Assembly (NCBI GenBank): GCA_902536065.1
Contig: CACAVZ010000008.1
Location: forward strand, 1 to 44,800
Length of the DNA stretch: 44,800 bases
Direction of reading: 5' to 3'
Source of the DNA: an uncultured Synechococcaceae cyanobacterium
Lineage (GTDB): Bacteria > Cyanobacteriota > Cyanobacteriia > PCC-6307 > Cyanobiaceae
Shown: piece after piece, positions 36,068 to 38,819 of the stretch
Numbering within the stretch: position 1 is the first letter of the stretch
Layout: each line of letters opens with the position of its first letter
Notes under the pieces: generated by a model
What the model was told of the DNA's origin: nothing
Seen by the model: the letters and a program-made list of their open reading frames with translations, nothing else
Databases searched by the model: none
Program-made: the position numbers and the translations under genes

Positions 36068-36802
36068 TCAATTAAATCTTTTTGCAAGAGCTATTGGGTC
36101 AAATACTGTTATCTTTTTTCTTTCAATAGTCAGGAGACCGGAATCTTTTAAATCTCCCAATAATCTTGTAATCGTAACCCTTGTAGAACCAATAGCTTCT
36201 GCAATAGCTTGATGTGAAAGTCTCAAATCTATTGTAATACCTTTTTCACCTGCAACTCCAAAGTCTCTACAAAGAACCATTAAAAAACTTACCAAGCGAG
36301 AAGACATATCTCTATGAGTAAGAGTCTCTATCATTGTTTCTGTTTGCAGAATCCTACTTGAAAGGCCTTGCAGCAATAATAATCCTACTGATGCATCTTC
36401 CTCTATTGCTCTTAAAACAGAAGTCGCAGGAGCTGTAATCATTTCAACTCTTGTAAATGCTATGGAATGATAAAAACGATCAGATCTATGGCCTGTTAGA
36501 AGAGATAAAACGCCAAAGAGGCTATTTTCTCTTAAGAGAGCAACAGTTATTTCTTCACCTGACTCATAAACTCTCGACAACCTTACTGCTCCTCTTCTTA
36601 TAAGATAAACCCTCTCAGCAGGATCTCCAGGAAAAAATATTGTTTTAGATCTCTCAACCATTTCTGTGCTAGCACCCTCTAGACCTTTAATTACTTCCAT
36701 TAAAGATCTATTGATTGGGAAGCGCTCTCCAACAGAGTTAATTTTACTTTGTCCGGATTGTTGCGAATTAAAACGATTCAATCCTCGAGAAGAAGGTATC
36801 AT
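36068..36802 (-). CDS. ntcA: Global nitrogen regulator NtcA
   Basis: CRP-family activator that senses 2-oxoglutarate and controls ammonium, urea and glutamine synthetase genes. 244 residues: an N-terminal extension, a cyclic-nucleotide-binding-like beta barrel ([39 protein letters not shown]), a dimerisation helix and the C-terminal helix-turn-helix [20 protein letters not shown], which is diagnostic for NtcA. ATG start at 36802. Its own promoter carries a near-consensus NtcA box (36852), implying autoregulation. Confidence 0.98.
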
Positions 36803-36851: not shown

Positions 36852-36865
36852 GTATCAACAGTAAC
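36852..36865 (-). promoter_or_regulatory. NtcA autoregulatory box upstream of ntcA
   Basis: GTT-ACTGTTGA-TAC on the minus strand differs from GTA-N8-TAC at one base and lies 22 nt before a TAN3T -10. ntcA is known to be autoregulated in cyanobacteria, and the spacing matches the amt1 promoter. Confidence 0.72.
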
Positions 36866-36944
36866 AATTTTCAATTCTTTTCTATATGTATGTAGATTGC
36901 TTTTAACTAGAATAAACTTTCACTTCGCTTTTTTAAGTAAAATT

Positions 36945-36960
36945 ACACTATATGCAGTGT
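36945..36960 (+). promoter_or_regulatory. NrdR-like box 1 upstream of the BtuR-like/dcd/thyX operon
   Basis: ACACTATATGCAGTGT agrees with the published NrdR consensus acaCwAtATaTwGtgt at 14 of 16 positions by my count; it sits inside a longer inverted repeat (TTACACT...AGTGTAA, 36943-36962). It covers the likely -35 region of the operon promoter. NrdR represses ribonucleotide reductase and related genes in response to (d)ATP. Confidence 0.65.
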
Positions 36961-36975
36961 AAATAAATTCAATTT

Positions 36976-36991
36976 ATACTGTATATAGAAA
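36976..36991 (+). promoter_or_regulatory. NrdR-like box 2, overlapping the -10
   Basis: ATACTGTATATAGAAA matches the NrdR consensus at 11 of 16 positions, with a good core but a poor right end. It starts exactly 31 bp after box 1, the three-helical-turn spacing known for paired NrdR sites. The TATACT at 36975-36980 is a likely -10, so bound repressor would block RNA polymerase. It ends 14 nt before the ATG. Confidence 0.5.
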
Positions 36992-37591: not shown

Positions 37592-38185
37592 ATGCTTAAA
37601 AATGATCTCTGGATAAATCAAAAAGCCTCTGAAGGGATGATAAATCCATTTCAATCAAATTTGGTTCGACATCTTTTCCCTGATAATAAACAAAAGCCAG
37701 TTTTAAGTTACGGATGTTCCTCTTATGGATATGATTTAAGACTGTCATCAAAAGAATTCCTAATTTTTAGACATATACCAGGCACTGTGATGAATCCCAA
37801 AAAGTTTAATCCTAATAATTTAGAACATACCATTCTTCACCACGATGAAGATGGAGACTTTTTTATTCTTCCTGCACATTCCTATGGTTTAGGAGTGGCC
37901 TTAGAAAAAATGAAAGTCCCAGAAAATATTACTGTAATTTGTATAGGTAAAAGTACATACGCGCGATTAGGAATCATAGTTAATACAACGCCTGCTGAAG
38001 CAGGATGGGAAGGTCACCTAACTTTAGAATTTAGCAATAGTTCTGGTGCAGATTGTAGAATTTATGCTAACGAGGGAATCTGCCAACTACTTTTTTTTGA
38101 AGGTGACCCATGTTCTACAACCTATGATGACAGAAAAGGTAAATATCAAAATCAACCAGAGAAAGTGACTCTAGCAAAAATTTAA
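37592..38185 (+). CDS. dcd: dCTP deaminase
   Basis: Converts dCTP to dUTP, feeding dTMP synthesis. 197 residues with the family motifs SYGYDLRLS, GKSTYARLGIIVNTTPAEAG and WEGHLTLEFSN (catalytic Glu region). The trimeric dCTP deaminase/dUTPase fold is expected. Extra dUTPase activity, as in some bifunctional Dcd, cannot be judged. ATG start 4 nt after the BtuR-like gene and 1 nt before thyX, so the three form one operon. Confidence 0.94.
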   Translation: MLKNDLWINQKASEGMINPFQSNLVRHLFPDNKQKPVLSYGCSSYGYDLRLSSKEFLIFRHIPGTVMNPKKFNPNNLEHTILHHDEDGDFFILPAHSYGLGVALEKMKVPENITVICIGKSTYARLGIIVNTTPAEAGWEGHLTLEFSNSSGADCRIYANEGICQLLFFEGDPCSTTYDDRKGKYQNQPEKVTLAKI

Positions 38186-38186
38186 A

Positions 38187-38819
38187 ATGAGCAAAGTTGA
38201 ACTAATTTCGCTAACTCCTGATGCAGAAAAAACAATGGCTTACATTGCAAGAGTTAGCAATCCAGGCAATCAGAAGAATGAAGATTATTCAAAATTATTG
38301 AGTTATTGCATTAAAAATGAGCACTGGAGTGTCTTTGAACAGTCATTTATGACCTTACAAATAGAAACTAATAGAGGAATTGCAGCTCAAATTCTAAGAC
38401 ATAGATCATTCACTTTTCAAGAATTTTCTCAAAGATACGCAGATAGTTCTCAATTAGGTAATATTCCCTTGCCAGAATTGAGAAGACAAGATCTTAAAAA
38501 TAGACAAAATTCAATTCCCGACCTTCCTGATGAATTAAAAAAACGATTTAATGAAAAAATTTCTTTACATTTTAAATCTGCTTCAGAATTATATGAACAA
38601 TTACTTTCTGAAGGAATAGCTAAAGAATGTGCAAGATTTGTTTTACCATTAGCAACACCAACGAGAATCTATATGTCTGGATCATGCAGATCTTGGATAC
38701 ATTACATTCATTTAAGATCAGCCCATGGAACTCAAGAAGAGCATAAATCTATTGCCCAGAATTGCAAGTCTATTTTCAAAAAAAGTTTCCCGACTGTATC
38801 AAAATCTCTTGATTGGTAA
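38187..38819 (+). CDS. thyX: Flavin-dependent thymidylate synthase
   Basis: Makes dTMP from dUMP with FAD, NADPH and methylene-THF. 210 residues with the ThyX motif RHR-(X)7-S: RHRSFTFQEFSQRY (R71-S81). CRSWIHYIHLRSAHGTQEEHK near residue 165 is also typical. ATG start 1 nt after dcd. With Dcd supplying dUTP for dUMP, the operon covers consecutive steps to dTTP. It ends 3 nt before the convergent thioredoxin-like gene. Confidence 0.97.
   Translation: MSKVELISLTPDAEKTMAYIARVSNPGNQKNEDYSKLLSYCIKNEHWSVFEQSFMTLQIETNRGIAAQILRHRSFTFQEFSQRYADSSQLGNIPLPELRRQDLKNRQNSIPDLPDELKKRFNEKISLHFKSASELYEQLLSEGIAKECARFVLPLATPTRIYMSGSCRSWIHYIHLRSAHGTQEEHKSIAQNCKSIFKKSFPTVSKSLDW

Follow-up and report, generated by a model that had tools for sequence, protein, structure and literature searches.

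The window, by which we mean the whole 44.8-kb stretch of DNA that was analysed, belongs to a Prochlorococcus genome. It contains a 203-bp gap with the divergent ntcA gene on one side and an operon of three genes on the other, and within this gap lie two boxes of the NrdR type (Table 1). The operon genes, encoding a BtuR/CobO-family paralog, a dCTP deaminase and a thymidylate synthase, are tightly packed on the plus strand, with intergenic distances of 4 and 1 bases. A first-pass annotation of this DNA had described a BtuR-like/dcd/thyX operon, and its family assignments stand (PF02572, TIGR02274 and TIGR02170), whereas the first gene turned out to be a paralog that lacks the P-loop.

Table 1. 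Coordinates of the two boxes, the surrounding promoter features and the flanking genes in the window.
Feature	Positions	Strand	Remarks
ntcA, divergent neighbour	36068..36802	-	TIGR03697 above cut-off
NtcA-site-like element GTATCAACAGTAAC	36852-36865		by eye
AT-rich block TTTTTTAAGTAAAATT adjoining box 1	36929..36944		98-100% conserved per position, 81 sequences
NrdR-type box 1, ACACTATATGCAGTGT	36945-36960	+	
Presumed weak -35, TGCAGT	36953-36958	+	by eye; overlapped by box 1
Spacer between box 1 and box 2	36961..36975		15 bp; start-to-start 31 bp
Presumed -10, TATACT	36975-36980	+	by eye; overlaps box 2
NrdR-type box 2, ATACTGTATATAGAAA	36976-36991	+	
BtuR/CobO-family paralog without Walker A P-loop	37006..37587	+	PF02572, E 1.8e-21
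dcd, dCTP deaminase	37592..38185	+	TIGR02274 above cut-off
thyX, FAD-dependent thymidylate synthase	38187..38819	+	TIGR02170 above cut-off

The best NCBIfam model for the first gene is PRK07414, below its cut-off, and the Walker A P-loop (GxGKGKT) is absent from it. The shorter motif GK[ST] is likewise absent from all 80 relatives, and no P-loop was seen in the printed orthologs of other families, three wrong-frame rows being excluded. Besides it, most of the 36 genomes searched encode one protein that matches PF02572 strongly and another with two domains, and the strongly matching protein carries the P-loop in 28 of 30 loci; in the incomplete assembly of the window, the operon paralog was the only member of the PF02572 family found. 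A circuit in which the first gene supplies adenosylcobalamin to NrdJ was dropped, because the P-loop is missing and other genomes have a separate paralog that bears it. The first gene of the operon therefore probably does not encode the cobalamin adenosyltransferase, and its linkage to dcd and to the putative operator suggests a place in dNTP metabolism.

Two 16-bp elements, 31 bp apart from start to start and agreeing with the NrdR consensus at 14 and 11 of 16 positions, had been claimed in the first-pass annotation. The sequence confirms them, box 1 scoring 14/16 and box 2 scoring 11/16 against the consensus, which we take to be ACACWATATATWGTGT; only the start of box 1, given as 36943, has to be moved by two bases, to 36945. 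The two boxes are the sole pair in the window with a summed score of at least 24 at spacers of 14-17 bp. They had been described as tandem boxes in helical register, and the 15-bp spacer lies inside the 14-17 bp that NrdR is reported to accept (PMC12051234). The notion that box 2 is an inverted copy of box 1 was abandoned, since in the window the 11-bp core gave no such match at up to one mismatch.

A chance resemblance in AT-rich DNA would find some room in the simulations, where 3 of 200 Markov-simulated windows reach a pair score of 25 (spacers of 14-17 and 24-27 bp counted) and 7 of 200 reach a single box of 14. When 203-bp gaps were simulated, however, none of 5000 reached the pair score and one reached the single box. 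The presence of box 1 in all 81 sequences compared, together with the pairs found in other families, both described below, already contradict a chance origin, which we regard as scarcely credible. Conservation is the stronger evidence for the box pair than the chance simulations.

It is plausible that the boxes cover the presumed -35 and -10. The AT-rich block next to box 1 is near-invariant though it lies outside the NrdR box, and it is perhaps an upstream promoter element or a piece of the ntcA promoter; beyond this 16-base block, on its upstream side, conservation among the 81 sequences is lower. Towards ntcA, 50 bp upstream of the gene, the NtcA-site-like element has 5 of the 6 fixed bases of GTAN8TAC, which we presume to be the NtcA site, and is a possible candidate for an autoregulatory site of ntcA.

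Conservation within Prochlorococcus

The comparison across relatives that had been proposed with the first-pass annotation bore out the pair. The loci found in the genus, with MIT 9401 and MIT 9302 among the named relatives, came to 195, and the window was aligned with the best 80 of them. Box 1, part of which served as the anchor of this alignment, is present in all 81 sequences and varies at 2 of its 16 positions. Box 2 is found best at a spacer of 15 bp in 78 of the 81 sequences and at 17 bp in the other 3; its score in the relatives is mostly 9-10 of 16, against 11 in the window.

Of 61 genus genomes, 47 contain exactly one match to a strict pattern for the pair, and the reversed pattern used as control gave 0. 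The 30 places fetched from these 47 are all located at most 150 bp upstream of the BtuR-family gene. Three of the 14 pattern-negative genomes were inspected, and in these box 1 is kept and box 2 altered, with the spacing unchanged.

nrdR and the promoters of nrdJ

An nrdR gene was to be expected if the first-pass annotation was right. It was not found in the window's own assembly, which is 70.7% complete, but it is present in 126 of 151 genus genomes and in 50 of 51 of the near-complete ones. A search for further paired boxes, above all upstream of nrdJ, had been suggested too. In other genera of the family, the top-scoring pair before nrdJ has a spacer of 15-16 bp in 26 of 30 loci, with scores of 17-22 and counted without a shuffle control; in this genus nrdJ is preceded by a degenerate pair only, with 10 and 10 of 16 positions at a spacer of 15 bp. 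That pair is nevertheless the best in 20 of the 21 genus loci scored, 10 of the 31 loci having been left unscored as the start was not recognised.

The monomeric NrdJ of the window genome is detected by TIGR02505. PF02867 proved the wrong model for monomeric NrdJ, finding nothing in the window genome and missing that of S. elongatus too. The nrdJ leader of the window genome (L122, about 1640-1745) shows strong conservation across the genus, centred on the degenerate NrdR-type pair. On account of this conservation we asked whether the leader might be a riboswitch or otherwise structured, and rejected the idea: there was no Rfam match at this place in the three loci searched, and the leader of the window genome folds no better than its shuffles (z +1.08). 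Glutamine-II riboswitches were seen near nrdJ in relatives, at L092 642-703 on the minus strand and at L095 4556-4617 on the plus strand.

Thirty-seven boxes, hand-picked from the nrdJ promoters of other genera and excluding the operon itself, were used to build a matrix. With this matrix, box 1 ranks first of the 44,785 positions in the window, scoring 15.6 bits where the second-best position reaches 10.4, while box 2 ranks only 1232nd and the summed score of the pair is fifth in the window. A single-box pattern gave 28 matches in 61 family genomes against 24 in the reversed control, and the count is therefore uninformative; position alone is telling, with 17 of the 28 matches adjoining the BtuR-family gene.

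Spacing of the boxes in the family and beyond

The NrdR proteins of four species are reported to bind box pairs whose spacer measures 14-17 or 24-27 bp, and to bind pairs at other distances two orders of magnitude less well (PMC12051234). Elsewhere in the family, the operon is preceded by box 1 and a weaker conserved element, GCTANATT, over the presumed -10. When this element was allowed anywhere within 54 bases downstream of the best box 1, the spacers in 54 loci were 25 bp (10 loci), 26 bp (37), 27 bp (1) and 16 bp (2), with 4 loci unresolved; a second count, in which only spacers of 15, 16 and 24-27 bp were permitted, gave 49 loci at 25-27 bp, 3 at 16 bp and 2 unresolved. All spacer-16 loci belong to genus g6, and one of them has a box 1 of only 8/16. 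The spacing thus agrees with the 14-17 / 24-27 bp rule, both at the 15 bp of the window and at the 16 or 25-27 bp of the other genera, and the short forms of Prochlorococcus (15 bp) and g6 (16 bp) are one helical turn apart from the others. Among 25 aligned NrdR sequences, one of them a fragment, no indel was seen in the interdomain linker to match the short spacer.

This distribution bears on whether NrdR binds box 1 only, box 2 being a conserved -10, with a control that is weak or activating as has been proposed for topA. The weakness of box 2, both in the genus, with its low rank in the matrix search, and in the other family genera, where it scores 6-10 of 16, would fit such an arrangement, and a one-box topA has been reported in Pseudomonas aeruginosa (PMC4409342). 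The distances between the two elements, on the other hand, are 15, 16 or 25-27 bp with nothing seen in between, which is unexpected under plain conservation of a promoter. NrdR has moreover been described as unable to bind one box (PMC12051234), and both inner arms are strong in other families. We consider binding to box 1 only as unlikely.

Some of the family loci carry a further element. A LexA-like box, RGTACNNNDGTW, touches or nearly touches box 1 on its upstream side in 10 of the 54 loci, all of them GC-rich (L216, L218, L227, L230, L231, L240, L241, L246, L250 and L251); the likeness was judged against what we assume to be the LexA motif. The operon may also be under SOS control in these genera. 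Other regulators do act nearby, to judge from this box, and as the case for NrdR binding here is made from sequence, a different regulator with a similar palindrome could be thought to control the operon. Against this, the matrix derived from the nrdJ promoters ranks box 1 first, and the spacings match the helix-phase rule of NrdR; we hold such control to be very improbable.

An NrdR operator is also the reading to which the other cyanobacterial families point. Fifty-six of their genomes have a dcd match, and 51 were examined, five not having been fetched. The BtuR-family gene precedes dcd in 35 of the 51, and in 27 of these 35 genomes (12 of 16 families) a significant pair is found at 25-27 bp, compared with 1 of the 16 genomes in which the paralog is not upstream of dcd; significance was set at p<0.05 against 300 simulated sequences, and genomes of one family are not independent. 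With the spacer left free from 8 to 44 bp, the best pair falls at 24-27 bp in 24 of 35 genomes with the paralog upstream vs 3 of 16. The strong parts of the boxes in these families are the inner arms, CTAGTGT in box A and ACGCTANAT in box B. No significant pair was found in families f4, f6, f9 and f25, which have the gene pair, nor in one genome of f15. In the class set, nrdR is absent from six further genomes, all six of them also without a dcd match, as are 15 of the 78 class genomes in total; since five of the six come from one family, this co-absence amounts to at most two independent cases.

Predicted control and relation to known NrdR operators

Taken together, the conserved boxes, the near-universal nrdR of the genus, the nrdJ pairs of other genera and the pairs across families support the regulator named in the first-pass annotation. 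The box pair is very likely an NrdR operator that represses the paralog/dcd/thyX operon with dATP feedback, where binding, repression, dATP sensing and the position of the promoter are the parts that we infer. Laid on the promoter of the operon, the two boxes would be occupied in helical register, when dATP is plentiful, by NrdR loaded with ATP and dATP, and the bound repressor would block RNA polymerase there. With falling dNTPs, the operon would be released along with nrdJ. The dNTP feedback would in this way extend to the conversion of dCTP to dUTP and to the synthesis of dTMP, beside ribonucleotide reduction.

The NrdR operators of E. coli nrdHIEF, Streptomyces nrdRJ and the nrd operons of Streptococcus and Listeria served as the reductase set for comparison (PMC12051234). 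The operator described here resembles them in having two 16-bp boxes, spaced by whole helical turns (15-16 or 25-26 bp), over a promoter (PMC12051234), and differs from them in its genes, a BtuR-family paralog with dcd and thyX in place of a reductase, and in a box 2 that is weaker than box 1. With topA of Pseudomonas aeruginosa it shares an NrdR-type box at a non-reductase gene, but topA carries a single box and its control is described as activation (PMC4409342), whereas the operon here has two boxes and repression is expected. The targets treated in the consulted sections of PMC12051234 are reductase promoters, and topA as another target is doubted there. In our reading, the operon would be an ancient and conserved target of NrdR outside the reductase genes.

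According to the first-pass annotation, this operon is not known as an NrdR target, and no such description was found in the open-access literature searched. RegPrecise, as far as its consulted description goes, covers NrdR in >25 taxonomic groups and includes a cyanobacterial collection of 14 genomes (PMC3840689); its NrdR regulogs are computed NrdR regulons, and the cyanobacterial one may already list the operon. While NrdR operators as such are well known, the change of spacing by one turn and the P-loop-less partner are less expected. A wider account, to which we give an even chance, is that an early cyanobacterial ancestor had a second NrdR operator, kept ever since before an operon for dTMP supply whose leading gene, the P-loop-less BtuR paralog, is an unrecognised part of dNTP metabolism, and that in picocyanobacteria the spacing has shifted by a full helical turn on at least two occasions (15 bp in Prochlorococcus, 16 bp in g6), as a natural replicate of the helix-phase rule.

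NrdR has been described as a reductase repressor; with a conserved operator at genes other than the reductase, feedback by dNTPs would also reach the supply of dUTP and dTMP in very abundant photosynthetic cells. This would fit the diel swing of NrdJ in Prochlorococcus MED4, which is 18.1-fold in mRNA and 8.5-fold in protein and is reported as the strongest protein oscillation of 312 genes measured (PMC3430701). Joint control would be useful given so strong an oscillation, and dcd and thyX are predicted to swing diel together with NrdJ. The uncharacterised BtuR paralog is flagged by its position as a likely dNTP-related protein, and the natural operators of three and four turns are suited to tests of the helix-phase rule.

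The operon was also encountered in contigs from viral collections. On three short ones (L392, L410 and L411), its host end passes, inside thyX, into a phoH-type cyanophage region, and L392 carries the box pair as well. These junctions most probably arose during assembly, at the thyX that both sides share, host-phage recombination being the less likely origin. On another such contig (L406, 9388-9403, minus strand), a strong NrdR-type pair with 14 and 13 of 16 positions at a spacer of 15 bp lies in other surroundings.
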